A stretch of 64,000 nt of DNA, taken from Strigops habroptila (lineage: Eukaryota > Chordata > Aves > Psittaciformes > Psittacidae). Of the stretch, positions 693 through 50,843 are shown one piece after another. Made by a program: the position numbers and the translations under genes. Numbering within the stretch: the first letter of the stretch is position 1; each line of letters begins with the position of its first letter. The DNA is taken from contig NC_044282.2 of assembly GCF_004027225.2 (NCBI RefSeq), forward strand, positions 55,818,397 to 55,882,396, written 5' to 3'. A model generated the notes under the pieces. The model worked only from the letters and a program-made list of their open reading frames with translations, was not told the DNA's origin and made no database searches.

Positions 693-699
693 ACTTTAA

Positions 700-1254: not shown

Positions 1255-3114
1255 CTGGCAGGTGATGTTAATAAAAGGGGGTTCCTGAGAAGGTGGGTAC
1301 ACTGGAAGATTTCTCTTCGCAGATTTTAGCAGCTCAGTTAATTCACAGAGATGATGCTGTAATTCTGAGAAGTTACCAGACAGTTTTTCTACATTTTTTG
1401 AAAAGTAACTTGCTTCCTTTTCACTTAATAAGTTATTCTTGTAAGAATTGGGTACTTTGAAAGCTGCATCTGCCTGCCTTTTTGGAGATGTTGGCTTGAC
1501 AGAAGACGCCAGCGATGCGGCAGACAGTGCCGCTGCGCGATTAACCAGTTCAGCATCGAGACACTCAACTGCTGGAGAATAACTCATGGAAATCTTCTTA
1601 TCTTTGAGGTCACTCATGTTCGACAAGCTTTGTTCATAAACGGGACTCTTAATTTCTTCAATGAGTTTCCTTTTGCTGGTAGGGGACTGAATGGCAGCAC
1701 GATCCGGCATCAGGAGTCCACGGCTGAGAGGGTGAACGTCTCTAGAGAGATCATGCTGTATGTTGGAAAGGTTCAAATCGGAGCTCCCATTAACTGATGC
1801 TGATGTTGAAGGACCCATTTCAAATATTAGTTCCTTAATCATCAGTCGTATCATATATTTGTCTGATCTTGAAGAGGGAAGAAATGCAGGGTCAGTGAAT
1901 CTTTGTTTTCCAACCAGTATCAGTAACAATTTATTGGTCAAGAAGCACAAACCCTTTGGTTTCTCATTTTTCTCTAGCTGAATTTGTTGAATATTGGGTA
2001 AATTGGATGAAGTCAGCGAATAGACTAAAATAATGTTACAAGTATTGGAGGCAACTGATACAATTTGAGTTTTGGGGTCAAAAGCCATTATATCAGGAAC
2101 CAGAATGCCTGGGATGCTAACTTTTTTGGTAGAGGTAACCCTTCTTTCAAATGTCACCAAGATGAGATGTGAAGAATCCTGGCCACTTCCCGTTAGGTAG
2201 TCCTTGGGCCGCAGATGAAGAAGAGGACTAGAATCAGCACCCTGCTTGCTAGAAAGTATGTGAGTTAGATCCACAGGAGATGCAACAACAGACAGGGACT
2301 TCTCAGAGTCCAGCGACTTCTTCCCCCCATCCATGGAATACTCTTCCTCACCACATAAGCTGGACTGCGAGGGGAAGGACTCTGTTTCAATGCTGGCTGG
2401 AATTTCAAATGCCACACCAGCATTTAAGCCACAGATCTTGTCCAGAGGAAGCTCGGTAGCAACAGCAACTTGGAAATTCAGAGTAGCTTCCACAGCGCAG
2501 ACATAGCCTCCCACATCAAAGATTGGGCAAAAAGAACAAGCACTCAGTGTTTTCTGAGCATCATCCCAAATGTAAGAATGAAGGGCACTGCCTACTCCCA
2601 CCACTAAGCGATTGCCTTCCTTCGTCCAACAAGCGCAGTGGATGAGGCCGCTGCCTTTAATATCTGCACTAACTCTGGAGCTGTTGAGGTGAACAGAGTG
2701 TAGGACAGAAGCATCCTGTGTAGTTAGCACAGCCAGGATCTCCTTCTTGGGATGCCACACGCAGCCCTGGGGGAGCACTGGGAATGGCTCGCTGATGTCG
2801 CATATCTGAGATACTAAGAGCTTATTTCTTTCTGCAGCATTAAAACAGAGCTGCCAAATGGTGATATGCTTTTTATGTTGCACAGCGAGCAGAGCTGGGG
2901 CATCAGGGGGACATGGGCCCCAGTAGAGTCCATGGATGTGTTCAAACTGACCAACAACACTCGAGTCACCAAATTCTGGGTCTCCGTTATGAAGGTGTAA
3001 AGCAGTCAGTATCACCTGTTTCCCATCTGTCCAGGCAATGCCATGCACAGGGTGAATTGCTTGATATAAGGCATTAAGGCCAGTTCTCAGAAGCTTTGCC
3101 TTTCCCAGCTCCAT
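1255..3114 (-). CDS. WDCP: WDCP copy 1, large N-terminal coding exon (3' exons outside window)
   Basis: This exon encodes the first 620 residues of a WDCP family protein. Human WDCP is a WD-repeat and coiled-coil protein reported to bind the HCK SH3 domain and found fused to ALK in a colorectal tumour; its normal role is poorly known. The start is the ATG opening [12 protein letters not shown], the same start as human WDCP. WD-like blocks fill about residues 1-300 ([27 protein letters not shown]). The core [12 protein letters not shown] / [13 protein letters not shown] follows, then a Ser-rich linker, and a coiled coil at about residues 565-597. The exon ends in CQ and is followed on the minus strand by GTAAT, a phase 0 donor, so the 22 residues that can be read beyond it are intronic. 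A good acceptor (TTTGTTTAG) sits just upstream with the exon starting at 3133, implying a separate leader exon. The sequence is only moderately similar to copy 2 beyond residue 39. No stop or frameshift is seen. Confidence 0.93.
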
Positions 3115-3133
3115 GACTTTTCATGTGAGACAT

Positions 3134-5518
3134 CTAAACAAATCAGAATACAAAGAAAACCAAATTCATTTTGTAAGGATAAATTTTTGTGTCGAGGACA
3201 GAGGACAATACCCGTACGAGTATTTAGCTTGTGACACTGCCAGTGCTGAACTCCTCCTCCCAGTAAAGTCAATATACACATAACGTTCATCTGTGCTGAA
3301 TCCCCAGCCCTAGACATTTTTTGTTCATGATGTTTCCACAATGAAACACAATTCCAAGGAAAACCCTCTGCTGTTTACACAGGCTCAGGCTGCTGCGTTT
3401 CCACCACAAGACCAGTCCTGTCATTCGCATTAATAGGGTGCTGCTTCTCAGTATTTCTGAACGACATCAGGATTAAAAATTCTCAAACTATCACCTCTCA
3501 CTTGCATCTTCATGGACCGTCTGCACTCAGATAACGTAATCCCTTACAAGTATAACCAAGCATTGATGTATTATCCACAGATCCAATCCTGTATTAAGTT
3601 GGTGAGAATAAGGCATCTGTATGGTTATTCCAGAAAGCTCTCTCCAAAAGCAAATGCAGTTTTGAAGAAAGTTAGGATCAAAGCATGTTTTTCTTAGGAA
3701 ATGAATGAGAAAAGAATTTAAAAGAACTTAGAACACAGGAGAGGGACAGACCCATTTACCTCAGCCACCAGCCATGCTATGAATGACTCACAGTCTTCAA
3801 CGTCCTCCAATGCAGTGATTATCCCTTTTTCCCTTTTCCTAAGGGATTCAGCACCTTTTTGTCAAAGCTCACAAACCACTTTATAGCTCACTACTGTTTG
3901 CTGGGTGGAAGGGATGAAAGCAGTAGGCAGCTGACTGTGCCTGCAGCCTGGTATTTCCGCATACCTGAATATCCATACAAAACTATACAAACATTTTTAA
4001 ATGCCTTATATATACATATATTTAGTATCTGCAGTAATTCTGAGAACATTTTCATCATTTGGATATTGCTTTAAGAGTACTTATTTTCATATTGTCCTGC
4101 AAAGTAGAAATTACTGGTTTATAGGAAGGAAATAAAACCACAGAAAACCTTCATTCCACTATTTTTGAAAGATGGGTTACGTGATTTGCCTGATCAGAGC
4201 CTTTTCCTCTCTACATAACAGCTTCAAAAAGGAGAATGGGAAACTGCCAGCAATCATTATTCTCTATAACCTGGAACCAGAGACATGCAGAAGCCACACG
4301 CAAAACACCAAAACTTCAGAAGAGTTCAGGATTTCACATGTATTTCTAGTTTTTTAGCTAGAAATCCCTCCTCTGCGCACAGAAGCCAATTCAAAGGAAT
4401 TGATGGTTTCCTCACTTAAGATTCTCCATAGGATTTGACTCAGCTGCGAAGCCACGGCACAAGTTGCAGCTTTAGTATGAAACATGACAAAGAAGAAGAC
4501 AGTGTTTGAGAAAGTCGAACTGGAAGAGCTTATGACAATGTGCAGGGCCTGGCACTACTTGGTATTTTAATGAACTATTTGTGAATGATCCCAAACTTGG
4601 AGGAAGAAGGTTGGGAAAGCAGATTTCAGAGACTAAAATTAGACAGAAAAAGTTGTGTAATGATGATCAAGACAGCTTCTTCTCAAACTCAAAACAAGTG
4701 CAAAATAATATACTTAGTAAAGAAAAAGCCCAGAGCCATGGTTCTCTCCCCAGTAATAATTCCCTGGGTAGCAGTATAGCAAAAAGAACCTGGCTTACAC
4801 ATCACAAATCAATTTGGATCACATATTGAATGTTTCACTTATGTGAGAATGCTGCCAAGTAAGAGAGTATCATTCTGGAATGTTTTTAATAGGAATGCCA
4901 TACCCAAGGGAGATAATGACCCCACTTCCACAGAGGTAACAGTATCTCCACTGGAGTCCTGTGCCTAGTTCTGAGTTTAATAGTCCAAGGAGGATGGAGA
5001 TGCTTAACAGAGCTCAGGGACCAGAGAAACATGAGAAGCGGGTTCACTCAGTTTGGAGGAGACTCTGAGTGGAAGCGTGCAAACACCCACCAGTCTGCTG
5101 ACAAGAGAACACTGACCCCCTTGTTCTCCAGGTCTGCTCTGGATAGTGAGAGATAATAATCAGCTTAGTTTCAACAAAGGAGATTTAGGTCAGCTATTAA
5201 GGAAAAATTCTAACTACAAGTGATGGCTAAGCACTGAAGCAGGTTACTTTGGAGGGGGGGAAGAAGGCACTCCATGAATTTTACTATCTGTAAGAGCCAG
5301 TTAAGTAAACGTCTGTCAGGGATAAGTTTAAGTACACCGGATCCTGCCTCATGCTAAGACAGCATTTGAGATACTTTCCAATTAACTTCACCATCTACCT
5401 GGCTCTCCTCTAAACTCCAGTGTGACCGATCCCAACCTTGTTCAGCAACTGCCACTTGCAGGAAAATCAAAACGTTGGCTCTTTGGTGCTCTGAACCACA
5501 TGCACGCTGCTGGGCAAT
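3134..5518. other. Inferred first intron of WDCP copy 1
   Basis: Between the acceptor at 3134-3135 and the candidate donor at 5523-5524 on the minus strand. No coding similarity or CR1 seen. Confidence 0.5.
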
Positions 5519-5525
5519 ACTTACG
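5519..5525 (-). promoter_or_regulatory. Candidate splice donor of WDCP copy 1 leader exon
   Basis: On the minus strand CTCCC is followed by GTAAGTATT, a near-consensus donor, at the edge of the CpG island. Its partner would be the acceptor at 3134-3135 just before the WDCP copy 1 start. No coding sequence is implied: the human gene also begins with a non-coding exon. Confidence 0.45.
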
Positions 5526-5639
5526 GGAGATAATACGGTTTCTCATAAGATACACCACGGTTCTAAGCCTCCTGGGCCACCCGGGCAGCCTGCTGTGATA
5601 CACCAGACATTCTGTGCTCTCGCCAGCCGACCTGGAAAA

Positions 5640-6600
5640 GCAAGAGCAGCAAGATGCCCACTGCCCAGCGCCCAAACCACTCGCGCTCCACCCCTTCCAC
5701 ACCGGCACCTCGATGCGTGCCGCCACCGGCGCGGCCCGCCCCAGCCACCTCCCTCCTCACGGTCCCTCCTCACCCGCCCGGGCCTCGCCTCACGCCCTCG
5801 CACCGCGCCCCGGCGGAAGCCGAGCTCCGGGCGGGTCCCCACGCCCCTCTGCCGGGCGCCAGGGACGCGCTCCGGGGCTCCTCTGGCGGACTCCGGGCGC
5901 AGAGAGGGTCCGAACCCCACCGCCCGCGCCGCCGCTCTCCGCGCGGGCCCGCCCGCACCGATATTGCCCCTTTCCCCCAGCAGCCCGCCCCCTCCCCGCC
6001 GCGGCCGGCAGCTTCACCCTCCCGGCGGCTCAGCGCGGCTCCGGCTGGGCGGCTCCCGCGGCCGTGCAGCGGAGAGCGGCGCCCGGCTGCGGCGAGCACC
6101 CACGGGCCCAGCCCGGCCCCGCCTCCCGGCCCGGCCCGCACCCGCGCGGCCGGAGGGGGCGCTCTAGCGGGGCACGCTGAGCTCCACAGCCCAGCAGGCG
6201 GAGCCTACAAGAGGCGGGCGCTAGAACTACAGCTCCCAGAAGGCAATGGGGCGGCGCGGTGACGTATTTCCCGTCACATGTCGCCCCCGCCTCTGCGCGG
6301 GTCCCGGCAGGGCGCCGTAGCGGTCTCCGCGCCCGGAGGGGCCGGTGCCGTCGGCGGGCACGGACCGTGAGGCGTGTCCGTCCCGCGGCACTCTGCCCCT
6401 TCGTGAGGAGTGTCCCAGCGCAGGAGGCGTGTCTGGGCAGCAGCGCTGGGCCGGGCCTGGCCTGGCCTGGCCTGGCTGCCTGGGGTCGGTTCAGCCCCCT
6501 GCGGGAGGAGGGTGCAGCGCGGATGGCTCCTGCAGCCCGACAGGCGTGGCGCGGGCCCGAGCGCACAGTCCGCGGGTCCCAACAGTTACTGGGGTCCTTC
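5640..6600 (-). promoter_or_regulatory. CpG island, likely promoter of WDCP copy 1
   Basis: The base composition changes abruptly to GC-rich with many CpG dinucleotides, in contrast to the AT-rich flanks. It lies about 2.5 kb upstream of the copy 1 main exon, with a consensus minus-strand splice donor at its edge near 5525, so it probably contains the leader exon and start site. It includes a ZNF143-type element and a CRE-like TGACGTA at 6260-6266. A short CCTGG tandem run lies near 6460-6476. It could also be bidirectional, but no plus-strand gene is visible next to it. Long open frames on both strands here are compositional. Confidence 0.75.
6226..6239 (+). promoter_or_regulatory. ZNF143/THAP11-type promoter element
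   Basis: ACTACAGCTCCCAG matches the ACTACAnnTCCCAG element bound by ZNF143, common near start sites of CpG-island and bidirectional promoters. It sits inside the island next to a CRE-like TGACGTA. Binding is inferred from the motif only. Confidence 0.6.
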
Positions 6601-6628
6601 TGCACGAGATAAAGATGCGGAATGAAAT

Positions 6629-6945
6629 ATGTGCCTGCAGGAAGTCTGAAGAGGGACTTCTTACAAGGGCATGTAGGGACAGGACAAGGGGGAGTGGCTT
6701 TAAACTGAAAGGGGAGATTTAGATTAGGTATTCGGAAGTTCTTCCCTGTGAGGGTGGTGAGACACTGGCACAGGTTGACCAGAGAAGCTGTGGCTGCCCC
6801 ATCCCTGGCAGTGTTCAAGGCCAGGTTGGACACAGGGGCTTGGAGCAACCTGCTCTAGTGGAAGGTGTCCCTGCCCATGACGGGGTGGAACTGGATGAGC
6901 TTTAAGGTCCCTTCCAACTGAAGCCATTCAGTGGTTCTATGATTT
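6629..6945 (+). mobile_element. CR1 LINE fragment, 3' end
   Basis: Plus-strand CR1 3' region from GAGGGACTTCTTACAAGG to the CAGTGGTTCTATGAT tail, abutting CpG island 1. It is followed by a T/GT-rich stretch (about 6945-7015) that may be a degenerate tail. Confidence 0.9.
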
Positions 6946-7779
6946 GTTTTGTGCTTGTTTTGTGATTTGTTTTCTGTTGTGGTTTTATTTGTGGTGGTGT
7001 TTTGGGGTTTTTTGTCCCCTTGGGTGAAGGAAGCATATAAATATGTTACAGAACTACTCCAGTACATCTTCTGTGGTCCTGATTGATTGCATCGGGCATA
7101 ATTTCTTACACGTCTCTAAGACCACTTTAATTATATTGTAAGACTGTGCGAGTTTGTCACTACGTAGTACTGCAGAGCAGTGTGATTGTCCAGTTTTGGA
7201 AACCCATGCTTTTGATAGGATGTTGAAACAACTGGAAAAGATGTCTTAAACAGGTGCCAAAGGCGTGAAAAAAAATGCTCGAAATGGTTACAAGGTCAAA
7301 TATGTAAATAGCTCAAAGTTCCTGAAAGAACACTAGGGGGTGACTTGGGTACACTGCATGAGTGCCTTACAGAGAAAAACATCAGAGTTAAAGAGTTCTT
7401 TACGTGAGTAAAGGTTTAACAAGAGCCATGGATGGATTGACATATGTAAGACACAGCTGTAAGTTTGATTGATCCCCAGAACAAGCTACTAAGAGGGCAG
7501 ATCGTCTTCCAGTTGCAACTTGGTGACTTTCAGGGACATATTATTTAAATGCAGAGTTTGCCTCTGTCCCAGAAAAAATTCTGAACTTAATAAATGGATT
7601 TTAGATTAAATTCAGTGGCCTGTGATGCACTATAGGTGGATATCTATGTATGATGGGATACAAGGTAAAATTCCATGAGCCGTTTCTATCCAAAAATATA
7701 ATCTTTTCTGTGGTTATACTGGCAAGGGTTTGTGGAAGAGAAATTTGTGCCATTAGTTTCCAGGTTCCTTTGGAAGCTC

Positions 7780-8715
7780 ATTCAGCAGAGAAGTGAACAT
7801 GTCAGTGGCATGGACAGTGGAATCGAGTGCACCCTCAGCAAGTTTGCTGATGGCACCAAGCTGTGTGGTGTGGTCGACATGCTGAAGGGAAGGGATAACA
7901 TCCAGAGGGTCCTTGACACCCTTGAGAGATGGGCCAGTGCAAACATCATGAAGTTCAACAAGGCCAAGTGCAAGGTCCTGCACCTGGGTCGGGGCAATCC
8001 CAGGCACAAATACAGACTGGGAGGAGACTGGATTCAGAGCAGCCCTGAGGAGAAGGACTTGGGAGTGTTGGTTGATGAGAAACTGAACATGAGCCGGCTT
8101 CAGTGTGCACTCGCAGCCCAGAAAGCCAACCGTATCCTGGGCTGCATCAAAAGGAACATGACCAGCAGGTCGAGTGAGGTGATCCTGCCCCTCTACTCTG
8201 CTCTCGTGAGACCTCACCTGCAGTACTCCATCCAGCTCTGGGGAGAATGTGGAGCTGTTGGAACAACTCCAGAGGAGGCCACAAAGCGCTGGAGCACCTC
8301 TGCAATGGTGACTGGTTGAGAGAGTTGGGGTGGTTCAGCCTGGAGAAGAGAAGGCTGTGGAAGACCTTAAAGCAGCTTCAAGTGCCTAAAGGCACTGATA
8401 AGAAATCCGCAGAGGGACTTTTTACCAGGGCATGTAGAGATAGGAGATGGAGGAACGGCTTTAAACTGAAAGAGGGGAGATTTACATTAGATATTAGGAA
8501 GACGTTCTTCCCTGTGAGGGTGCTGAGGCGCTGGCACAGGTTGCCCAGAGAAGCTGTGGCTGCCCCATCGCTGGCAGTGTTCAAGGTCAGGTTTGATGGG
8601 GCTTTGAGCAACCTGCTTTTAGTGGAAGGTGTCCCTGCCTGTGGAAGGGGGCTGGAACTAGATGATCTTGAAGGTCCCTTCCAACCCAAACCGTTCTGTG
8701 ATGCTGTTTCTATGA
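7780..8715 (+). mobile_element. CR1 LINE, 5'-truncated, with end of the reverse transcriptase ORF
   Basis: Nearly 1 kb of CR1. The frame at about 7810-8245 is the last part of ORF2 ([59 protein letters not shown]), followed by the 3' UTR and tail (CCCAAACCGTTCTGTGATGC). The catalytic FADD of reverse transcriptase reads FADG and the element lacks its 5' half, so it is dead. Confidence 0.93.
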
Positions 8716-10159
8716 AGTGGCCATAGAGTAGGGACAGGAATGGCTAGAGGGCAAGAATAGGATTTGTTTGAACTTTTGTGGTTTTGAAATTACTGTAAGT
8801 CTTTCTGCCAGATTCAGGCACTTGATGCTGTGAGTTGCAGTACATAAATAAATGAAAACCAGATTTGAGTTAACTAATGGATTTCCACGGTTACATTTTT
8901 AGTTTAGAAAGACAAGCAGTAGACCCAAATGCCAGCTTTTCTGTGTTGCTCCATAAATACGCACTCTCTGGTGTATGAGGATTTATCAGAAAATGAACAA
9001 ACATGCATTTAGATTTCTGTGCTCTATTTTCTTTTTTCGCTGTCATTAACAACAGACAGGGTGCAGCTGCAGAAAGAACAATCCCAAATTAGCCCAGAAT
9101 GGAAAAGGAAATTGAAAATTTTCACATAGAAATCTACTCTACATTCACAATATATGGTACTCTCAGGGTTAGGGCCTTAGTATATCGTGTCTCAGAGAGA
9201 GGTGAGCAGAGATGAGCCCTGCCTAAGAGATGGTGACGATGATCATTGTATTTGCTCTTGTTCTTTTAGCTCTGGGACGTACACACTTACACAGTTGTGA
9301 GAATGGCACAGCACTAGGAATTCCTGCTCTCGCTTGCCTGTGTTGCACCTGGTGGGTTGGTAAGGGCTGTTTTCCAGTTCCACTCCCTTCTCTCTACAGG
9401 GTTTCATGTGCATGAACGCTCAACACTGTCGTACATCAGCTGTTGGCACAGAAGGTGCCTGGGGTGCTTGGTCCTGCGCATCACACAGGAGAAGACAGAG
9501 CATGTGCTTTCAATCTTGTTCTCCCTATGGATAACAAATAAGTGACCCAAAAATCCACCTCCTAAAGCACTCATGATCTGCTCTGTGATTTGTTTAGATT
9601 GATGGCAATGTGGCTTGCAAGTGCTGCCCAGGCTGTAAGAAAACTTTCTGGAACGTGTTACGGCGGTGAGGCTGGTGTGAAGCGTTTGTACTGTGAGGCA
9701 GAGACACCAGGGGACTTTACTGCACAGGAACAGGTCGCTGAGCATGATCCTGCTGCTGTATCTCACAAAGAATCTTGTTCAGCATGAATGATTTCACATT
9801 TTTCTCTTTTCATATAAACGGAAATTGACCATCCATATTACGATACAGAAATAAAACATTTAAAAATTGTTTTATCAACTAAAGAGATCACAATTTGAGA
9901 ATGCCTCAGAAGATATTTTCTTATTAAATGTTTATTTTTGTTTCCTATCCTTATAATTATACAGGTGTTTTTAAGGACTTCTATTTTCATCATGTAAATT
10001 CTCTTACATGTATAAATGCTAATTAAGTTATACAAATGAACCAAAAATATCACCAAAGCTTGTATTTGTTTGCAAGTCAGTAAAATATGGTCAGTTGTAT
10101 AATATCTTGATTGAAATGGAATTATCTCAGTCTACCAGCATGCCAGGATGGTGTGTGGG

Positions 10160-10398
10160 AGGGTAGATTTAGATTAGATACTAGGAAGGAATTCTTCCCT
10201 GTGAGGGTGGTGAGGCGCTGGCACAAGTTGCCCAGAGAAGCTGTGGCTGCCCCATCCCTGGCAGTGTTCAAGGCCAGGTTGGACAGGGCTTGGAGCAACC
10301 TGGTCAAGTGGAAGGTGTCCCTGCCCGTGGCAGGGGGTTGGAACTAGAGGATCTTGAAGGTCCCTTCCAACCCAAACCGTTCTGTGATTCTATGATTA
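10160..10398 (+). mobile_element. CR1 LINE fragment, 3' end
   Basis: Plus-strand CR1 3' UTR from AGATTTAGATTAGATACTAGG to TTCTGTGATTCTATGATT. 5'-truncated. Confidence 0.92.
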
Positions 10399-12117
10399 TT
10401 ACACGTGGGTGCTTATTTCTATGCCCAACAGTGTGTACTTTATTTATGTAACCATAGGCTGGTTATTTCATGTTGTAGAACAACCACACTAGCCATGGTG
10501 TGCATAGCCACAGTGGTTATTTCACAGTAGCTGTAATGCAAATAAACGTCTCTTGTTTTCTTTCTTTCCCCCCCCAGACATTTCAAGCTGTTTACTGCTG
10601 ATATATATGATGCATCTGTTACTTCAGGGATTTAAATGATGCAAAACCCCTTAGGAGACAGATACAAGGTAGAAAGTGGGGCAGTGAAATTATACAAGGA
10701 AAAGTGTTTAAAAAGCTGAAATTATAGAAATTGTTTCCTGTGGTCATGCTCATTTAAAGCACACGCGTCTTGTCTGTAAAAAATACATGTTCACATTCAA
10801 TCAGGCTTATCCTTAGACACTGAACAGCCTCACAAATCTCTTCTCAGCCCCTGCACTGAGAACAGATTTGCGTTCCCATAACTTGATTTGTTGTATCATT
10901 TGGGCGTCTGCTTTTCAAATTAGCTTGAAACACAACATTAATAAGAATATAGGACAGTCTGACAGAGAAGAGTGATGAACACCAGTTAGAAGGAAAGAAA
11001 GGCAGGGAAAGAAGGTGAAATGGATGTGATGGGGAGACGTGGTTTTTATGCACTTTGTAGATTTTTTTTTTCTTAATTTTTCTTACCGAATATGTACATA
11101 TTCAAAGAACATAATGTTATAAGGGAAGAGAATAATTTGAAGATACTTCCTGTTCATTAGCATCATCTTCTAAAAAAATATATTTAATCCAGGTTATGGA
11201 TGCTACTGAATGACGAAGTTCAGATCTCATCATCATATTTCTTAATGGGAAAACTTAATGAGGCACTGTCATGTAATTGTAATTTAGACCCCTGAAATAT
11301 CATATGATAAAGCCTGAGATCAGTAGCTAAAAGGTACAGATGTTTTATGTGCTTTTTGTTAGTACATTAAAAACGTTTCTTCTTAATTTTGGGAGGTGAT
11401 TAGTAATAAAGATAATATAAGATGAGCAATTTTGCAGGAAATTACCTAGACCCAAGGCAGTATCATGCTGTTACGAGAAGGCTGACATGCTGTGGGATGG
11501 GTGAACAGGATCATTGTGTGTCAGACACGTGAGTATCTTGTCTGTTCTACTTGGCTGAGTAAAGCCAGAAGGGTCACAGTATTTGCATAGCGTAGGCAAA
11601 ACTGAATTTTCTGCTCTGTAGCACCAGGCCTTGCAGGGCTTTTCCTTGTGGCTCCAGGCTTTGAGGAATGGAGAGGATCAATGACAGTTTTGGTGATTAG
11701 AACAGTGACAAAGTGAGTGGGAATTACTGCTTTTGTCTGCAACAGTACCTGCCATGCCTCGCCTCCTAACACAGTGAAGCCTGCCTTAGCAGGTCAGAAT
11801 TCAGCAGGTCAAACACTTTGCTTGTTCTTGGAGAGACAAAGCAGACACAGGCTGTGGTCTGAGTTAGTTTTCAAACAGCTGATTGTTACCTACTCTGGGA
11901 AGACGGCATCAGCAACAGAGAAAACTCATACTGCAGTGTTTTGTTATCCCTTGTTCATGATGTGACAGCCAAATTTTTCTGTATGTCAAAAGCTACACCT
12001 TTTTCATGTCTGAAACAGGCCTTCAACTTAATTCTACTAACTGCTGCAGTTTGAGATACTGAATGCTAGCCTAGGGCAAAGTAACAGGAGGTCCATGGTG
12101 GATGCCTATGAGAGAAA

Positions 12118-12345
12118 CTGGAGGTCTCCCTGAAGCCTTCTCTTCTCCAGGCTGAACAAGCCCAGCTCTCTCAGCCTGTCTCCATAGCAGAGGTGCTCCA
12201 GCCCTCTGAGCATTTCTGTGGCCTCCTCTGGACTCACTCCAACAGATCCACATCCTCCTTATGTTGGGGGCCCCAAAGTTGAATGCAGAACTGCAGGTGG
12301 GGTCTCACGAAAGCAGAGTAGAGGGGGAAGATCACCTTATAATAG
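12118..12345 (-). mobile_element. CR1 LINE fragment lacking its 3' terminus
   Basis: Reverse complement of internal CR1 (CTTCTCTTCTCCAGGCTGAA, GCAGGTGGGGTCTCACGA). The usual 3' tail is missing, so it is truncated at both ends. Confidence 0.88.
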
Positions 12346-17943: not shown

Positions 17944-18110
17944 TTATGTCACTCTGCTTGGTGGTCGAATTGAAATGCTTTTTTTGTAGGAGTGACCTCC
18001 ACAGACTTCTGAACTGTCAGTTCCATCCCTTATGATTATCTCTTGTGCTGCTTTGAATATTAATGGCACAAAGCCATCCTTGTCTGCAGTGAGCACAATC
18101 CAAGAAGAGC
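17944..18110 (-). CDS. WDCP: WDCP copy 2, terminal coding exon with stop codon
   Basis: The acceptor TTTTTTGTAG on the minus strand precedes two bases that complete a Gly codon. The exon then reads [16 protein letters not shown] and the highly recognisable [10 protein letters not shown], ending in PSRVT and TAA. Human WDCP has SHWILLSADSEGFIPL and [10 protein letters not shown] at the same point, so this is the last coding exon. The bird tail after EIIIRDG is shorter than the human one, giving about 695 residues in total. The open frame continues upstream of the acceptor, but those residues are intronic. The 3' UTR should run toward lower coordinates; an AATAAA on the minus strand at 16758-16763 is one possible polyadenylation signal, unproven. 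Confidence 0.9.
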
Positions 18111-21100
18111 CTACAAAAAATAAGCAAAAAAAGAACATGAGTGTACTGCTCTGGTTACATAAAATGTACAAGCACGTTTTAAAAAGCCAGCCTGCATGCG
18201 AGCAGAGCAGCCTGTCTTCTTGTGCACTAAAGCCTTATTACGCTAATGACATTAAGGTCTGACAATCCATGCTGAACACACCTTCGTGTAAACGCAGAGA
18301 AGCTAAATGAAAGGTCTTGAAAGGTTTGAGGCATTTTGTCCCTTATTTAAATTAAGTTGAAAAACACGGTGCATCCTTGCTAGTTCTGATGAACAATAAG
18401 TATCTCCATTTTCTGAAAACTCAGCCAACCTTTCCATGCTGACTTTTGTTCTAGTGACATCTACTTCTGCTTATCCTTTTAGCTCATCTGCTCTACCCCA
18501 ATGACGAAGAGATCATAAAAACTGAAAAAGTTGGCAAAGAAATGATTGTGCTGTATTTGTTCTAGAAGGAAGTAGGGGTTTCCGTCTCCTTTACTGTCAA
18601 GCCAAGATTGTTCAGTATGTTTTCAAATTCATACAGCAAACGGAAGTTACACCTTGAAGAAGATTTACAAAAGATACCATGATTTACAAAAGACAATATA
18701 CAAAAGCTGATATAATAAAATTTCTTGTCCTTTCATTATTTATCAAATCTTCTCATAAAGAGAATGAACATTTTCAATCCTTTTTTTTTTCCTGAAGATA
18801 AAAAGAGGCAAGATTAAAAACCAAAGACATCAAAATCATGAAGGTTCACTTTATGTATTGCATAGAAGCAGAAAATAAACCTTTCCTGCCCTTGCTTTTT
18901 TACTTTCCTTTGCAAGTCAGCTTGAAAATGAAGCTATATGTACCATATGTATTTTTTTCTAGTGATTCATCTGTTTCTTTTTGGACTGGATATTGCAGTT
19001 CTTATAGAAAATAGTGAATTCTCTATTTGGCTTTGTTTTCAGTTTGACATTTTATGAAAAAGAAAAAAATCTGTGGCAACTGAGAAGCATTGTGGGAGCC
19101 CTTGTATGACACGTTTTTCTTACAGTGTATGATCCTGTCCTTACAGAGCAGAGGCATTAGCTGGGATATGAGGTAGAGAAAGACCTGATATGTTCTGTTG
19201 TTGAAATTTTTAATTTTGGGAGATAAAACTGTGTTTTGAAAAGGAGCGTGAAAAAAGGAAGTGTAGGAAAATCCAGGAGAACCGTGCTTAATTTTTGTCA
19301 GTCATGACAAAGCATGTTCCTGCACAAGGCAAATCTCCCCTCCTTGTACTACTAACAAAGCACTTTTCCAGGCTGCTACTCTATTGCATGTTGTCTTGTC
19401 ACCTGTTACATCATAAGAAGATTGTCATTCCAAACCATGAATCTTTAATCTTCTACTCTTAATTCTTTCTTTCTAATTCTGGACAGACTTCAGATTCTGT
19501 AAGCTATGGGCCTGAAAGTGGAAATCCTGCTGTCCAAATTGATGGTTGCATTGTTGGTCAAATGGATAAAGCATTTTTGTCAAACTCTTGGGACTTTTTC
19601 TTTTCATCCATTGAAATATTTGAAGTTCTCTGTGTCGTTGATAACACTTGCTTTGAAGGGTATCCCACAAAATATTTCAATGGTGGAGAAACCTTGTGTG
19701 GAATGTAATACCCTTTTGCTGTGGACAATTATTATGAAGACACCCTGCTGAAAAGAGAGACTTCTGTGTGCTAATAGCAGGGCACTATATGTTAAGCTGT
19801 ATTTAGCACAGGTAATGGCATTACAGTCCTGGGCTTAGAGTGCAAACAATGAGGACAAGTTCATTGCTCATATAACTCTGATGATCTTCATAGCTTTGCT
19901 GCGGGTATGAATTTGGCGTACAGCTGTGAACATTTTTCCCCCTGTATATTCAAGTTTAAGTGTTTATTCACAGTAAAAAATGCCAGGCTGTCACTGTAAT
20001 ACAAGCACACTCTTCATTACATCCCCTTTAATTATATGGTATTAAAGGATGGGAATGATATTTTTAAACTTCGCATTTAATATTCATGCCTCATGGCAAA
20101 GAAAAAATTTAGAAACATAAACCTGTACTGGTCAGAACTGAATAAGAGCTACGTAACTGCTTCTGCCCCAAACCTGATAATTTTGCAAGATTTTGGTGAG
20201 TTGTAGAAAGATTCTTGTTTCAGTTGTTCCTTTTGCTGTCAACAAACAGATTCAATTTCAGAAAAGCCAAGCACCACATTGAACAGAAAGAGAGAGAATT
20301 TAGGATGATTCTGAGGCACTGTCTTTTTGATATTTCTGAAGTCTAATGCATGAAATTGAGAAGTGGTGCTGTGCTAATTAAATATTACATATTCAACTGT
20401 TCTGTAGAGCTGAAAATAGGTTTTCTCAGGCCCATTATTTATTATTTTCATACCAAAATCTAAACCTCTTTTTTTCATTATGGGCATTTGTTTCCAAAAT
20501 CAAGAGCTGGAAGTACACGCCAAAAATGGTATCCTCCTTGCCCAAAGCTGCACTGTGTTATTGTAGAAACCTGCTGGGAAATGGCTCAGGCCTCAACAGC
20601 ACCTAGAGTTTTTTCATATATGCTTCCACTGCCCTGTAGAGGTGAGAGAGATTGCAAACAAAAATACAAAATCTGCATATCTTTATCTTCTGGAGCAACT
20701 CTGTGAAACTGCTGTAAGCCAGGGGAAAACTGAAATGGCCAAATGTGTCTTAAATAAAGGCAGCTCCCCTGATCTGTACTGTGGTTGTAGCCCCTTTTCT
20801 GCAATCTTGTGGTTTCATCAACAAGGAGATAAGCAGAATATGAATGGCAGAATAGTGCATATTTTGCATCTCTTTCTTCCAACTGTCATAGGTGCCAGCA
20901 CCAGTAACATCCCAGGCCTGGGTTCTTTTTCACAGTCTGGTATGTAACCGTCATTACTTAGAAGACCTTCAAGATCATCTAGTTCCAACCCTCTGCCATG
21001 GGCAGGGACACCTTCCACTAGCCCAGGTTGCTCCAAGCTCCGTCCAACCTGGCTTTGAACACTGCCAGGGATGGGGCAGCCACAGCTTCGCGTCACCACC

Positions 21101-22314
21101 CTCACAGGAAAGAACTTGTTCCTAATGTCTGATCTGAACCTCCCCTCTGTCAGTTTAAAGCCATTCCCCCTTGTCCTGTCACACACACCTGTGTAAAAAG
21201 TCCATCTCCATATTTCTTGTCAGCCCCTTTAGGCACTGGAGTGTGCTCTAAGGTCTCCCCAGAGCCTTCTCTTCTCTCAGCCTGTCTCCATAGGAGAGGT
21301 GCTCCAGCCCTCTGATCATCTTTGTGGCCTCCTCTGGACTTGCTCCAACAGGTCCACATCCTTCCCATGGTGGGGTCCCCAGAGCTGGAAGCAGTACTGT
21401 GGGGGTGGGGCTCACCAGAGTGAAGTAGAGGGGGAGAATCACCTCCTTTAACCTGCTGTCACACTTCTGGTGCACCCCAGGATGCGTTTGGCTTTCTGGG
21501 CTGCAAGTGCCCATTGCCAGCTCATGTTGAGCTTCTTATCCACCAACACCCCCAGGTCCTTCTCCTCAGGGCTGCTCTCAGTCCAGTCTCCACACAGCCT
21601 GTAGTTGTGCTTGGTTGGTTTCACCAACAGTTGAATTCATTTCTCATAAGACAGAGTATACTGGTTAAGCCGATATGTCTCAGCCACCTGAAGCATTATA
21701 CAGAAATGGCTAAAAAATAACAGTATGTGTGTTGCTGAGAAGGTAGCATATGTGAGCAGACAGTGACAAGGTAATTCAGAGACCAGCCTGGGGCTAGGAT
21801 GTCCCTAGCTGCTTCTGTCCTTACGAGTTAATCAGTAGTGAAAGGTAGAAATGTGAGATTGGCACATTAGAACATTGAGCTTCACTGTTTATCTTACATT
21901 AAAATAATCCCAAATGCCTCATGATACACATATATATCATATTCTGAGAATGAATTTTTCTCCAACCAACTTTCTATTGTCAGGTCTGGGACATGCTTGT
22001 AAAGATGGGCAAAGCAAAATGCCAAAAGGTGTCAAGGAAGCCTTTCTATTTCTAGGTAACACGGCGTACTGATTATTTTCTCAGCCTTCCTCTAATCTAA
22101 CATATTATTCTGGTAATGGGTAGTTCTGCAGTTACTTAGCATTTAAGTGATTTCAAGACACTCTGCCGTATTTCAGGCAAAGGAAAACACACACATCAAA
22201 AAAAAAAGTTATCTATCTCAGTTTATTACAGTATGGGGTGGTTATTCTACCACAAGTGCCTTTTACACTAAAAACCCCAGGTGAAACCAGATACCAGAAA
22301 TAAAAAGAACATAC
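18111..22314 (-). other. WDCP copy 2 intron 2
   Basis: Bounded on the minus strand by GTATG and TTTTTTGTAG, about 4.2 kb. Only the CR1 at 20960-21615 is recognised inside. Confidence 0.85.
20960..21615 (-). mobile_element. CR1 LINE fragment, 3' half
   Basis: Reverse-complement CR1 from the 3' UTR (ATCATCTAGTTCCAACCCTC) back to the end of ORF2 (CACCAACACCCCCAGGTCCT). It lies in intron 2 of WDCP copy 2. Small internal gaps are present. Confidence 0.9.
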
Positions 22315-22435
22315 CGTGCTTCATTTCAATAACAGGCAGATCAAACAGCTGCTGGACTAAATTCAAAGGGATCTTGCCATCACAGAGGAGAACATCTTTT
22401 GTTTCTTCAGAAACTGCTCCATTTGAAAAACTTTT
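22315..22435 (-). CDS. WDCP: WDCP copy 2, second coding exon
   Basis: This is a 121-base exon too short to stand out as an open frame. On the minus strand it follows TTGAAG and reads 40 codons beginning KSFSNGAVSEE, then VLLCDGK, VQQLFDLPVIEMKH, plus one base before the donor GTATG. Human WDCP has the counterpart VLLCDGK...VQQTFGLSLIEMLH in the same place, directly after the coiled-coil exon. The entry phase (0) matches the donor of 31808-33727, and the exit phase (1) matches the acceptor of 17944-18110. The intron before it is about 9.4 kb and the one after about 4.2 kb. Confidence 0.9.
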
Positions 22436-24886: not shown

Positions 24887-24952
24887 GTAAGTGATGATAA
24901 CATGCCTTTAATGTTTAGTTTAAGTGATGATAACATGCCTTCTCTTTGAGGA
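24887..24952. repeat. Tandem direct repeat, two units
   Basis: AAGTGATGATAACATGCCTT occurs twice about 33 bases apart, a recent local duplication in intron 1 of WDCP copy 2. Confidence 0.8.
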
Positions 24953-24959
24953 ATATGTT

Positions 24960-25110
24960 CACATACATCATAACATGGATTAACTGATTTAAACCCTTGT
25001 CTTTTGAGAGGCAGGTAACTGTTAGTATTCCCTTTTTATAGATGATCAAACCATTACACAGGAAGATTAAGAGATTTACTCAAGGTCATGGAAGTAGTTT
25101 GTGACAGTTA
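24960..25110 (-). repeat. MIR-like SINE relic
   Basis: Resembles reverse-complement MIR: TATTCCCTTTTTATAGATGA and GAGATTTACTCAAGGTCATG correspond to the MIR core. Diverged, and recognised by eye. Confidence 0.5.
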
Positions 25111-25959
25111 TAAATACAAATAAAATCTCACCTTAGTACTTCCTATTTTCATGCCTTAAACCAAAGACAATTTCCTAGTCAAATCTACATTTAATCCACC
25201 TCTTCCCAAAATATGTGAGGGTTTTGCTCTGTTGCTATTTATCTCCAATAGAAGCCAGAGGACTTGCAATTCTCCGATTAAAATCCCTTAATGTTAGTTG
25301 TTTTATCCTAAACCAAAGTTTATTGGTAGACTAAGAACATATTAATCACAGAAAAAATGAAGAGATTTCTACTTATGTGAAGGGGTATTTTTGGATGAAG
25401 TTTCTTTAGCCAGCTTCCTGCAGTATGTCAAGTCCAACTCTCCCTCTACAAAATCCAACAGAAAGAAACCATCAATTCAGTAATTGTTTTTCCTTCATCC
25501 ATGTCAGCCTGCCCCTTGATTCTGATCATGACAGATCAGAATTTATGTCTATAAATCTGGGTCTTCTGGGCAGCGGCCAGCCCATCACAGTGTTGCCGAA
25601 TTGTCTTTCAAAAGTCGTGTTTTGGAAGGCAGATATATTGGAGAAGAAGATAATTTCCTAAGGCAAAAAGGGTTCCTGGATTAGATGTTATACACTAGAA
25701 GACTGCATGATAAACATGTCTTTTATCACTTTTTTGAGCCCCACTGAGCATTCAGCTAGTTCTGCCTCTTGACCTTTTTCATTATTTATATTTCCTCATG
25801 TACTGCCTACACCTGCCTGGATGCTAAAATCATCTTCATGAACTTGAATTCAATGACTGATGAAACAGTGAGGGAAATACGTATATGCTACTAATCAGAA
25901 ATGGTTTTACTAATTTTGGGTTACTAATGGATTTTCAGTTTGAATGTGTCTTTCTTGCA

Positions 25960-26610
25960 CATGGATGTAGGAATGTAAAACATTTTCCAGGTGAGGCCTC
26001 ACAGCTGTGTTGGCCAGTATTGCATTACTTACTGGGTGTACTTTGCCAATGTACTCACAGACTGCTTTGTTCTTTTTGTAAGCACATCACATTTTTTATT
26101 CATAGTCATCTTGTAGTCAATTAACACATGCAAGCTTTTGTCATCCATGGTTGTTTCCAGCTAATGAATATCCAGTTTATAACAGAAATTCCTTCTATTA
26201 ATCCTGGAATATATCACTATACCCTTCACATTAGTTCATTTCAATCCTTTTTTTTTTTTTTTAATTCTAGATGCTAAGGTCATCAAATTACAGGTGTGAT
26301 ATCCTTATCCTCTATTGAAAATACTACTGACTTCATGCCATACACAGATTTTATTGGCATATCTCATCAGATCATTAATGAAACTTTTAGATTAGCCTGA
26401 AGATCAATCGTGAGAAAATCCACTAGTAAATTTCTTCCTTTTTTTTTGTATATTACTATAATCGTTTACTATCTTCCTTCCAGCTAATTCCTTAACCATC
26501 TTATATATCTTCTATTAATCCCTATTCTCTGATGTTGAACAAATAATTTCCCCTGTGGCATGATTTCAAGTAGTGTACTGTATTACAGGCATTTTAAATA
26601 TTCTTCATGT
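25960..26610 (-). mobile_element. Ancient CR1/L3-like LINE relic
   Basis: Scattered matches to old amniote CR1/L3 LINEs in reverse orientation: CCAGGTGAGGCCTCACAGCT, CATCAGATCATTAATGAAAC, AATTCCTTAACCATCTTATA and CAAATAATTTCCCCTGTGG. Recognised by resemblance only. It lies in intron 1 of WDCP copy 2. Confidence 0.55.
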
Positions 26611-27485
26611 CCTTTGTGTCAATAATCTGTTCTTCTATAAAGGAAAGGTATCCAGTTAGTCACTCACAGCTCTGCACTGTAAGATGAATAGTGCTGTGGT
26701 TGGCCAGAACTCTGTTTTCATTTTCTTAAACCCTTGATTTCAGTTCTTTGTGTTGTGCTTCAGTGGTGATGTCAGTTTTGGTACCTTAGTACCCATTAGT
26801 CAGCTTGCTTTTGCCTTGCCCTCACATTCCTTGTGCAGGATGAGGAAAATCTAGTAAACAAAATAGACATGGGATTCTGGTCCAGGGGACAATGGAAAGA
26901 ATGTTAGATGGCTAAATGAGGCGGAATGAGAACCATGATTTTTGACATTCAAAGTACTGTGTTTTATTATGCCTTGTACAGCATTGCCATGGGTAGTATT
27001 AATTAGGTTTGGCAGCCTGCAGTGCTCCCCATTTCCTGTCATGATTTCCAATGTTGCTGTGATTCCTTATTGATTTTTGCTGGATCCTGATGTTATTTTG
27101 GTGGAGTTCTTAGTATCTAAGCTTGTCCTTATGCGGGACATTCCAGTTGCAACCCTAACTAAGATGTCAGAGAAGCATAAGCCTGTAAAACATTTACATT
27201 GAAAGAGATCTGATGTGCTCATGGGTGCTTAAATCCCAGTGCAGTTTGCATTTATGCACGTCGGCATTTCAGGTGATATGCTAGGATTTCTCTACGCTTG
27301 GCTCCCTGTTGATAGTTCTGCAACTACTGTTTCAGGTCAATTGTTATCTAAGATATACCCTTTGTCCTCAAGCTTGTGCTTTCATGATGATTATGTTTTC
27401 AGTGTGGGTTTGGTTTTTTTTTTTCAACTCAGGTATTTACTTTCTTTGTATAGTACGAAAACTTGGATTCATTTTCGACATTACA

Positions 27486-28120
27486 TGTGCAATGTGCGCT
27501 TGCAGCCCAGAAAGACAACTGTATCCTGGGCTGCACCAAAAGAAGTGTGACCAGCAGGTCAAGGGAGGTGATTCTCTGCCTCTACTTTGCTCTGGTGAGA
27601 CCCCACCTGCAGTACTGCATCCATCTCTGGGGGCCCCAACATAAGAAGGAAGTGGACATGTTGGAGCAAGTCCACAGGAAGCCACAAAGATGCTCAGAGG
27701 ACTGCAGCACCTCTGCTATGGAGACAGGCTGAGAGATTTGGGCTTGTTCAGTCTGGAGAAGAGAAGGCTCCAGGGAGACCTTAGAGCAGCTTCCAGTGCC
27801 TGAAGGGACTGATAAGAAATCCGGAGAGGGACTTTTTGTAAGGACGTGGAGTGACAGGACAACAGAGAATGGCTTTAAACTGAAAGACGGTAAATTTAGA
27901 TTAGATATTAGGAATAAGTTCTTTCCTGAAAGGGTGGTGAGGCACTGGCACAGGTTGCCCAGAGAAGCTGTGGCTGCCCCATCCCTGGCAGTGTTCAAGG
28001 CCAGGTTGGACGGGGCTTGAGCAACCTGGTCTGGTGGAAGGTGTCCCTGCCCATGGCAGGAGGGTTGGAACTAGATGATACTGAAGGTCCCTTCCAACCC
28101 AAACCACTTTGTGATACTGT
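27486..28120 (+). mobile_element. CR1 LINE fragment, 3' half
   Basis: Plus-strand CR1 starting in the end of ORF2 (QCALAAQKDNCILGC) and running to the tail (CCCAAACCACTTTGTGATAC). It lies in intron 1 of WDCP copy 2, antisense to it. Confidence 0.92.
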
Positions 28121-31100
28121 TCTTTGATATTCCTTTTCTTTTGCATCTATATATCCAACAAAGAAATAATCTGCTCTAACAAAAGGTATTGTGTCTCCTG
28201 TACAAAGCCCGCTTGTCTGCTATTGATCACTCTCAGAACATTGTTATCAGAATTTGTTCTTAACAAATTCCTCAACCTTTGCTCAAAATGTTACCTCTGC
28301 ATTAATCACACCTTCTCTTGACTACTGCAGGACTTTCTTTTACAGTGATCCTAAATCTCTTCCTTCTAACTTTAGGACGGCTGACCAGTTTCTTACTCCA
28401 GGGAGCAGTCATACCGCCTTTCACTTCCATCATTTTCATGACTTGCTTTCTATTGCTCAACCCAAGTCAAAATTGCCCCTTAGATTTCAGAAAGGTTCAT
28501 GGTCTTATTACAGTGGATCATTGCAGCCTACTGTGCCACCCTTATTCCTTCCTTCTTTATTTCATGTATTTCTATCAGAAGAACATTATTGCCATATGTT
28601 TGGATCCTTCCTATTTATCTCGCAGCTCTGTGCAGAAAAATTGTTTCTTTTATAGCTGACCTTGGCAATAAAGCTTCCCATAGTAAATTGTATGAAGATG
28701 CTATAAAAGTATAAATTGACTTGTATACAATTATTGGTGAGTGCTAAGAAAAAGAAATCATTGTGACTAATTGCTGAAAAGATAGTTATTTCCTGTTTAA
28801 TTATGCAATATATGCTCTCAGTGATATACACTTTTGACATAATACTGTTTGTGAGCAAAATGTGGGAGTTTTAAGATATTCTTCAGATTAAGATGAATCT
28901 TATTCGTCCTGGAGAGTTTGCCTAAATGCCATTAATTTCAAATCCAGATTGGCTTTATTTCCACTGTAATTAGCTTTTGAATGAGACTAGTTTAAATATT
29001 CTGCAGCTGTTTCTTTTCTGGGCGAAAAGGATGATAAAAGTATCTTTCTGCAAAATGAAACAGAAACAAATCTGTGACAGATCCTCATCTCTTCTTTGTT
29101 TTGGGGCTTTTTTTTCTTTCTAAATAATATCCTCTTACTGCATTTGTCTGTCTGCCCTCCCACACTATCCTGAATCACAAGTCTGTATGTGGTGAAAGAG
29201 CAATAATATTTGCTTTTCAGGGTTGAATGATCAAGTCACCTCTTGTGGTTGAATGCTATTACACAAGTGATAGTGCAGTGACATTTCCAATATGTGAGTG
29301 ATCATGTTTTTCTTTTATAGCTATGGGCTACAAATTCTGGTAGTGCTGCATGGACGTGGCTTCAAAGGAGTTATAGGTAGACTCGCAGTAACAGAATAAA
29401 CAAAGGTTTTGAGGACTATTTAGTAAGCAGACATTATGAATTCTTAAGTAATACACATTCTGCTTTATATTACGCTTTTCTAAGCAGAACTGGAAACATA
29501 CATAAACACATCAATAATGCGTCTACACAACAGTGTTCATAATTGCTTGTTAATTATTACTACATTTTTATCTATTATGTTTTAAGCTTCCCTTTTATGT
29601 TTTTAATGCATAAATATGGTTATGCAGTAGTGATCATTATATTTTATAGCACAATAGATTCCTCAATCAAGATTGAGCCTCTGCCGTGCTGGGGATTATA
29701 TAAACACTCAGGAAGACATGCACTTGGCACAAAAAACAGAAAGATAATGGCCATATTATTGACTGGACTGCAGTGTTCCTAAAGCTTAGAATGTTTTCCA
29801 CAGGCTGATATTTCTATCATAAGGCAATAAAGCTATTTCCTGACTTTTTGCACTGTGAACGTACAGCCTGGCTGGAACCCACAGCCCAGCTGGTCTCTGA
29901 GCTCACAGAGCACTAATCAAGTCCTGAAGGAGGAGCAAGGTTCAGATGTCTGAATCCAAACTAATCAAAACAACTATTTTCTGAGAAAATTATTAGCTGC
30001 CTATGAAGCAAATGTTTCCGTGTCTGTCTGGAGGCCTTTTTGCCATCAGTCTATTTTTCACTGTTTTTTGGCATCATGCTGTGATCCTGTTAGATTTCAG
30101 AAGAGGGGCTGAGCTATGCAAGGCATTAGTTGAGACATACAGAGAAAAGCTGTGTGCGTCGGAAAGACATTAAGTGGCTCTTTTTCTGTGTCACTATAAT
30201 GTGGTCCTAGCAGTGTTTCCTGCTGGTCCAATGTGAAACTAACCTGTTCAGATAAATAAGAGTCTTCCTTTCTAAATGTAGTTAGTCTAGCAGTATTTTA
30301 GAAGCACTAAGTATTTTTTTTTTCTTCAAAGGAAAAAAAACAGGATAATGAACTCTTACTGCTTGTGCAAGCAAATGTGCACAGTGACTTCAGATCTTAG
30401 ATTAATGTTACGTGTCAAAACCAAAACTTCTCTTTGGAAAGGTTAATCCAATCAAATCCAAGAGATAGGGCTGCTTGCTAAATAAATAAGTTAATTTATG
30501 TTAAGATATCAGAATTAATTCGAACATGCTGGAGAACAGAAGGGCTTGCTTCTTGGCAAATAAAATCCTAGATTATTTAAAATAGACGTTGCTTTTTTCA
30601 CCAGTTTTGTATAATGTATTCAAGTTAAATTATTGACTATAACAGATCAAAAGCTTTGCTTTTATTCAGAGTAGCTAACATAGTAGAATCTGCTTAAAAA
30701 CCAAGTAAACACTTGCTAAAAAGTAATGAATATGATGAATTGAGTCACCATTCCCTTAATGAGTGTTTAAGGAGGAGTACTTAGATGTCTGTATGGATTC
30801 CTTTAAAGTAAAAGGAAGTCAAATTGTCAAGTTTGTTTGAGAAGTACATTCTTCAGCATCATCACAATGTAATGTATTGCTTTGACATAGTGCTGCTTAT
30901 GTTGCAGTAGATAAGAATGCATTTATAATTGGCATCGACATCCTGAAAGCTTTAGCAACAATAACACCAGCCTCAGCATGACCAAAAATATTATCAATAT
31001 AATGTTAGTATTACTGCAAATAATACTAGGAATAATAACCAGAAATAATTACCCAACCTACATTCCTTAGTTGAAATTCTTACTGAAGCCAGTAGGAATT

Positions 31101-31807
31101 TTGCCAAAACAAAGGTGGGATAGGAACATGGTGATTTGACATTCACCTATTTATTTAATTAAATGATAATTACATATTGACAGATTCTTTTTTTCCCCAG
31201 AAAGTCTGAAGCGGTAATATGCTTTACAAATTGAGCATGTCCAACACTGTGAAGATTAGTGGTGAGAAATTAAAGTAGAAATACGCCAACTTCATGTCAT
31301 GCCCATGTAAATTTCCATAAACGAAGATTCAATACTACATTTCAGTCTTCATGAGAGTCTAGTTATCTCCAGACTTTGGATTTGAGCTCAGGTTTGCATG
31401 TATTATGTTTCTGGTGGACTACTGTACTGCTCTACTTATAGGCTCATCTCTACACTAAACAAACGTATAAACTTTCTGTACATTAACAACTGTTTGGCTC
31501 TGTTCTCTCTCTTTGATAGGTGCACACAAAATCAGCTAGCATCCAAGGCAGTTGTGCATAATCAAGCAAGAACAAACATAACTCTCCCATGTGAAGTATA
31601 CTCTTAAGTTACCCACATCATCCTGAGTTATTGTTTCAATGACACATCATAATACCATTTTAGATTAAGCTTGATGCCGAACTCAGGTTACATTTCTCAT
31701 GGGTTGATAAAAATTAAACTGCATCCTCTTGATTTAAAGCTAAATAAATACAAGATTGTTCTAAAATTGTGCCCATCACAATTTATTTAAGCTGACAAAA
31801 AAGTTAC

Positions 31808-33727
31808 CTGGTAAGTGATGTGAACGACAGGTGGTTCCTGTGAACACGGATAGGTTAAAGATATCCTCCTCCCATTTTTAGCAAGGTCTTTTATTTCAGA
31901 AAGACTCAGTTGTAGCTCACTGAAGCTGCCACAAAGTCTGTCTAAATTTCTAGATATATGACTCATTCCTCTTTCACTTGAAAAATTGTTGTTTTTAGGA
32001 GAACTTGATGTTTCTTGGATCACATTCAACTGCACTTTAGGGGAAGTTGGTCTGCTGGAAAGCCTGGTAGGTGTTCCAAAACCAAGAAGAGACACTGAAC
32101 GATTGGTAGGTTCAGCATCCAATGTTTCCAAGGCCACCGAGGGGTCACTTGGGAGCCTTTTTTCATCCAGGTCACTCACACTTGATGAAGAGCCCTGCTC
32201 ATAGCTAGGGTTCTTTATTTCTTCAATGAGTCTTCTCCTGCCACTAGGAGATTGAATAACTGTACTTCTTGGTACTAACAGCTCCCTGCTTTGAGGTTGG
32301 TCTTCTGTAGCAAGATTTTCAAAGAACTTTCTTTTTCCAGGAATATTAACAGAGGATTCAAAGTTATAGAATATATTCTGTTTAGTCTCTGGCAATGCTG
32401 AAGAATCTTCTTCCAGCATCAGTTCTTTGATCATCAGACGCATTACATACCTGTCTGAACTTGAAGATGGAATGAGACTAGGCTCAGGGAACTTCTGCTT
32501 GCCAATCAGAATCAATAGGAGTTTGTCTGTCAAAAAGCATAGGCCCTTTGGTCTTTCATTTTTTTCCAGCTGGATTTGTTGAACATGAGGCATACAGGAA
32601 GAGGTTACTGAATACACTAAAACAATGTTAGACGTATTAGAGGCCACTGCCACAATCTGAGCTCTCAAGTCAAAGGCCATTATATCAGGAACCAGAATAC
32701 CTGGGATGGTGACTTTTCTGGTGGTGGTTACCTTCCTCTCAAAAGTCACCAAGATCAAGTGAGAAGAATCTTGAGCATTTGTCATTGCAGAGTCTTTGCA
32801 TTTCAGAGTGATGAAAGGACCGGGATCAGACCGACGGTGGTTTGCAAGGATATGGGTTAAATCCACAGGACCTGACGAAGAAGAAGCAACTGAATCAACA
32901 CCTGATCGATCTGAATCTGTGGACTTTCTTCGCAGGTCCATGGAGTATTCCTCATCACCAAGCACCAGAGCAGACTGTGAGATTAAAGAACCAGTTTCTG
33001 TACCAGGTGTCATATCAAATGCAATGCCTGCATTCAAACCACAGATATTATCTAAAGGAAGCTCAGTAGCTACAGCAATTTGGAAATCCAGTGTGGCTTC
33101 TATAGCACAGATATAACCTCCCACATCAAAGACAGGGCAAAAGGAGCAGGTATTTAGAGTTTTCTGAGCATCATCCCATATGTAGGAATGCAGGGCACTG
33201 CCTATAGCAACTACTAAACGATTACCATCCTTAGTCCAGCAAGCACAGTGGATAAGCCCACTGCTTTTAATATCTGCCTTAACTCTAGTATTGTCAGTAC
33301 GAACAGCATGCAAGACTGAAGCATCTCTTTTTGTAAGCACAGCCAAGACCTCCTTCTTTGGATGCCAGACACAGCCCTGAGAAAGCAGTGGAAATGGCTC
33401 ACCAACTTCACAAGTCTGAGAAATCAAGGGTTTGTTCTTCTCTGCAGTGCTGTAGCCCAGCTGCCAGACACTAACATGCTTTTTATGCTGAACAGCAAGC
33501 AGAGCTGGGGTGTCCGTAGAGCAACATGGGCCCCAGTAAAGCCCATGAACGTGTTCGAATTGGCCAACAACGCTCGAGTCTCCAAACTTTAGCTCTCTGT
33601 TATGATAGTATAAAGCAGTCAGTATCACTTGCTTCCCATCTGTCCAGGCAATTCCATGCACGGGGTGGATGGCCTGATACAAAGCATTGAGGCCAGTTCT
33701 CAGCAGCTTTGCCTTTCCCAGCTCCAT
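31808..33727 (-). CDS. WDCP: WDCP copy 2, large N-terminal coding exon
   Basis: This exon encodes residues 1-640 of a second complete WDCP protein. The order is the same as in copy 1: an [12 protein letters not shown] start, WD-like blocks ([27 protein letters not shown]), the [12 protein letters not shown] and [13 protein letters not shown] core, a long Ser-rich linker and a coiled coil at about residues 584-616. The exon ends in YQ with a GTAAC donor in phase 0, at the same place as copy 1. The frame stays open for 12 codons upstream of the ATG, but the apparent earlier start at 33763 is TTG, so the ATG at 33727 (A at -3, G at +4) is chosen. The next exon found in phase is 22315-22435. The gene is divergent from FKBP1B, as in human, which makes this the positional orthologue of mammalian WDCP. 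Confidence 0.95.

Positions 33728-48117: not shown

Positions 48118-50843
<2,726 letters not shown>

Follow-up and report, generated by a model that had tools for sequence, protein, structure and literature searches.

An old tandem pair of WDCP genes under constraint in Strigops habroptila

WDCP (C2orf44), the WD repeat and coiled-coil-containing protein (Pfam PF15390), is poorly understood. Mammals are not known to have more than one WDCP gene. The human protein is assumed here to bind the HCK SH3 domain through a proline-rich motif, and its gene presumably lies at 2p23 between MFSD2B and FKBP1B, in the same gene order as in the bird locus described below. Duplication of WDCP was not mentioned in titles or abstract openings among the literature matches listed, and automatic bird annotation may list a second copy.

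The locus considered here was analysed from a stretch of 64,000 nucleotides (the window, C6:55818397-55882396) and carries two WDCP genes, referred to as copy 1 (on the MFSD2B side) and copy 2 (on the FKBP1B side). Very probably, the pair stems from an ancient tandem duplication at the DNA level, which took in the entire coding gene of WDCP within the MFSD2B-FKBP1B interval, after which both full-length copies were kept by purifying selection.

Two complete WDCP genes between MFSD2B and FKBP1B

A six-frame search of the bird's own assembly (1,148,577,936 bases in 89 contigs) with PF15390 gave six exon matches from seven scored candidates. All six are on C6 and comprise two main, two second and two last exons, which makes two WDCP genes; no third was found by this search of 1.149 Gb. 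Both genes are read on the minus strand. The main coding exon of copy 1 (1255..3114; 620 codons; 974 bits against PF15390) begins with an ATG at 3114 and ends CAG|gta at 1255, and part of the intron 3' of it fills positions 1..1254. Its second coding exon (C6:55816615-55816498) and its last, stop codon included (C6:55814443-55814172), lie to the left of the window, so the possibility that copy 1 lacks downstream exons, raised by the initial annotation of the window, does not apply. Copy 2 lies wholly within the window, with a main coding exon at 31808..33727 (640 codons; 1034 bits), a second at 22315..22435 (entered in phase 0, left in phase 1) and a last, again with its stop codon, at 17944..18110.

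Each copy therefore has three coding exons. Both main exons have an uninterrupted frame and the same ...CAG|gta end in phase 0, all intron borders are GT-AG, and the phases (0, then 1) match between the copies. Of these borders, the one at the 5' end of the copy 2 second exon (AAG|AAAAGT) is the most open to doubt, because the pyrimidine tract there is weak and an alternative AG is close by. The initial annotation had described two intact main exons in the same orientation, 20 codons apart in length and identical over their first 39 residues; its coordinates, common start, exon end and splice phase all hold. With the same orientation, common intron positions and phases, neighbouring places on one chromosome and all three coding exons present in both copies, the tandem duplication that it proposed is real. 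Upstream of copy 1 (window 3115-3140), two out-of-frame ATGs would precede the start codon if the main exon begins at the TTTAG about 20 bases 5'; these could lower translation or act as a translational control.

As introns are kept at the same positions and phases in both copies, neither is a retrocopy. The wider suggestion that one copy is a pseudogene or processed retrocopy is extremely improbable: the retrocopy form is rejected, and decay of either gene is unlikely given open frames over 749 and 735 codons, whereas frames simulated without selection were lost early (of 300 runs each, 9, 2 and 0 were still open at 0.05, 0.1 and 0.2 substitutions per site, respectively).

The local gene order is UBXN2A-type, MFSD2B, WDCP1, WDCP2, FKBP1B, SF3B6. 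The first of these is represented by a SEP-domain exon at C6:55763090, and MFSD2B, named from its MFS_2 match and its position, by exons at C6:55783433-55807714. The synteny anchor on the other side is the first coding exon of FKBP1B (MGVEIETISPGDG; 48081..48119, plus strand), matched to a provisional FKBP1B sequence. A piece of the second coding exon (residues 13-29) follows at 50772..50822 (plus), and beyond the right edge of the window further exons of the gene lie near C6:55909030 and at C6:55910852-55910980, where the last matched exon ends; the intron after the second coding exon spans about 40 kb, from window position 50822 to about C6:55909030. SF3B6 follows on the minus strand (about C6:55917417-55921207). 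The pair of FKBP_C matches on C6 are exons of a single gene, and no further FKBP1B was detected in the neighbourhood. Since this order agrees with the one that we take to hold at human 2p23, the WDCP duplication happened in place.

Between the two copies, eight longer open frames, which are a sample of the 347 window frames of at least 55 amino acids and not an annotation, gave no Pfam match over the cut-off; one of them had two matches below it (E 0.007-0.008). Copies of an interspersed repeat family, presumably CR1-like, occupy larger intervals at 713-1059, 6638-6944, 7899-8715, 10159-10397, 12122-12337, 20964-21614, 27490-28121, 46263-46625, 60525-61206 and 63437-64000. Long open frames lie in this family at 7732-8726, and two of them had no Pfam match at E 0.001.

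Elsewhere in the genome, at C13:15244191-15269962, an FKBP1-type gene accompanies SEP-domain and MFS_2 exons with the order and strands seen on C6. We take these genes to be NSFL1C, an MFSD2-like gene and FKBP1A. The block probably goes back to the whole-genome duplications of vertebrates, as a partner of the C6 region, and no WDCP was detected in it by profile search.

Age of the duplication and selective constraint

The two proteins are 749 (copy 1) and 735 (copy 2) residues long and 61.3% identical over 714 aligned residues. Nonsynonymous divergence (dN) between the copies is 0.27-0.28, and synonymous divergence (dS) is 1.21 (LWL85), 1.34 (ML), 1.58 (NG86) or 2.19 (YN00), with a range of 1.02-1.53 for LWL85 over 100 bootstraps. 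At four-fold sites, 92 of 208 positions are identical, giving a JC distance of 1.02 (0.78-1.34). Non-repeat blastn similarity between the two gene regions, with repeat matches filtered out and uncounted, is confined to coding exons (five of five kept matches, overhangs of at most 15 bases).

These values bear on whether one gene has simply been counted as two, through separate haplotypes or through duplication in the assembly. Only their adjacency in one contig speaks for such an artefact. The copies sit in a single contig of 76.4 Mb, similarity of their non-repeat introns is undetected beyond a few bases at exon borders, and the protein identity of 61% and dS above 1 agree with the statement in the initial annotation that two haplotypes are not involved. 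The artefact has next to no probability.

As a yardstick, a published table gives great tit and chicken a median dS of 0.339, and the largest of its seven values, that for turkey, is 0.346 (PMC4231635, Table 1). By this measure the duplication precedes the splits among the tabulated birds; ostrich-type birds are absent from this table. The dS between copy 1 and copy 2 is 3.6-6.5 times that great tit-chicken median, and the duplication is therefore probably older than the living birds, with the proviso that dS is near-saturated and that the sole outgroup is a provisional human sequence. Only the age class "old" is safe, because of this near-saturation and because a single gene can depart from the median.

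A recent duplication confined to a single bird lineage, after which one copy diverged fast, would fit the rapid change of the middle region, where four 40-codon blocks from 441 to 600 retain 35-55% identical residues. It is nevertheless highly unlikely, as it conflicts with the synonymous divergence set out above and with the roughly even distribution of copy-unique changes. Among 681 ungapped sites in an alignment of both copies with the provisional human WDCP, 291 are the same in all three sequences, 136 are common to the two copies only, 117 differ in all three, 77 are common to copy 1 and human (changes unique to copy 2) and 60 to copy 2 and human (changes unique to copy 1). The difference between 77 and 60 is small, so neither copy has run away, a division of change that rests on the provisional outgroup. 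This sequence scores 1177.6 bits over the full Pfam model and is thus at least a good WDCP sequence.

The same outgroup bears on an older date. A Poisson distance of 0.489 separates the copies, and their distances to the provisional human WDCP are 0.627 and 0.682. Under roughly even rates, these distances would make the duplication younger than the separation of mammals and sauropsids but much older than the living birds, which is a lead only: three sequences cannot root themselves, and a fast human lineage could therefore mimic such a placement. A duplication before the split, followed by loss of one copy in mammals, is compatible at the DNA level with a dS near saturation; the rate on the mammalian branch may differ, and human shares somewhat more sites with copy 1 than with copy 2. 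However, each copy is nearer to its partner than to the human protein, and the distances would then need a fast human branch or gene conversion. Such an early origin is unlikely, if less so than a recent one.

Pairwise dN/dS is 0.13-0.22 depending on the method, as an average over both copies, and falls to about 0.10-0.13 in the WD region (aligned codons 40-240). As judged from this pairwise constraint, purifying selection has acted on the WDCP pair ever since it arose.

The 39 N-terminal residues shared by the copies are encoded by codons of which 11 of 39 differ synonymously. Their dS of 0.44-0.53 is below that of the rest, over few sites, and the longest run of identical codons, seven, is of ordinary length (permutation p 0.20). 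A gene-conversion tract at the 5' end was considered and is ruled out by the 11 synonymously differing codons and the ordinary length of this run. The synonymous differences mean that identity was held at the protein level, and it is explained by protein-level selection.

Putative promoters and divergence between the copies

By composition, the 124 kb examined contain two CpG islands, and each WDCP copy has one of them upstream. The island at 5521..6720 lies 2.4 kb upstream of the copy 1 start codon and, because of this distance and with no other recognised gene beside it, is read as the putative promoter of copy 1. The island at 47321..48820 surrounds the first coding exon of FKBP1B (plus strand) upstream of copy 2 (minus strand), and may be a bidirectional promoter common to these two genes. 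Copy 2 keeps the head-to-head CpG-island position beside FKBP1B, and copy 1 the tail-to-tail position beside MFSD2B with a CpG island of its own.

Both full proteins match PF15390 over the whole model (1-694 of 694; 1090.5 bits for copy 1 and 1142.4 bits for copy 2), far over the curated cut-off of 25.3 bits, and both are members of the WDCP family. The N-terminal WD-repeat fold was checked by profile, and propeller (WD-repeat) families gave matches below the cut-off only. AlphaFold predictions from two-sequence alignments reached a mean pLDDT of 29.8 and 28.4 for the two copies, and the models are unusable; a C-terminal helix, spanning 565-601 in copy 1 and 588-617 in copy 2, is seen only in these models of very low confidence. 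By sequence, the copy 2 main exon had no solved relative, three ferritin matches at E of about 0.5 being taken as chance. A scan of viral contigs with two peptide patterns returned 48 pattern matches and no relative.

Besides the fast middle region, the tail is divergent, with 32% identity over the last 34 aligned codons and a longer tail in copy 1. The tail encoded by the last exon of copy 1 is long and rich in serine, and it contains an internal near-repeat (SSKTLDIISS / SSESLDITSS / SSKALDG) that is missing from copy 2.

The copies also differ in SH3-type motifs. The provisional human WDCP has a single PxxPxR, PRLPQR at 540, and copy 1 has exactly one, PTSPKR at 541, at about the same place. 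No PxxPxR occurs in the copy 2 protein, in which the matching place (residue 560) reads PTSPKV. The automatic three-way alignment does not align these stretches, since it opens a gap within the human motif, and 7.7% of 2000 shuffles of copy 1 carry at least one PxxPxR. The related pattern [RK]xxPxxP is found at 587 in the provisional human WDCP and at 601 in copy 1, shortly before its main exon ends. Copy 2 is without it at that place and has one at 523. The match in place of PxxPxR is a lead, and no more, for a functional split between the copies.

How might both genes have been retained? Both copies may share an ancestral adaptor or scaffold role of WDCP, and separate promoters leading to different expression would be the simplest reason for keeping both. 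Further divergence may then have followed in the variable middle region and tail, possibly with loss of the SH3-binding site in copy 2. For subfunctionalisation of the pair, as proposed in the initial annotation, the motif difference is only suggestive. A more far-reaching scenario, which we hold as tentative and rather doubtful, is that birds, perhaps together with crocodiles or turtles, have had two differently working WDCPs for well over 100 million years. Copy 1 would have kept the ancestral SH3-binding site (PTSPKR), and copy 2 would have lost it (PTSPKV) and have SH3-independent roles, each gene with its own CpG-island promoter. If true, the pair would divide naturally between two proteins the work that mammals leave to one WDCP.

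Comparison with known systems

An old, constrained pair is informative about a poorly understood protein. It marks near-invariant parts of WDCP (the first 39 residues and the WD region) as well as variable ones (the middle, the tail and the SH3-type motif). It also warns that orthologues assigned as "WDCP" in birds may be a mixture of the two paralogues.

Compared with known WDCP, both copies match the full-length profile and occupy the MFSD2B-FKBP1B location expected from the presumed human order. Relative to the provisional human protein, copy 1 keeps a PxxPxR at about the same place, whereas copy 2 is without one. The arrangement differs from that known in mammals in having two tandem genes instead of a single gene, and copy 1 in having a longer, serine-rich C-terminal tail. 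Set against old tandem duplicates in general, nothing structurally unusual was found in the pair; the event is real, yet of a fairly common kind, and reveals no new type of system. Like the old tandem duplicates kept in birds and other sauropsids, the two WDCP genes are neighbouring, intact paralogues, here with a dN/dS of about 0.13-0.22.
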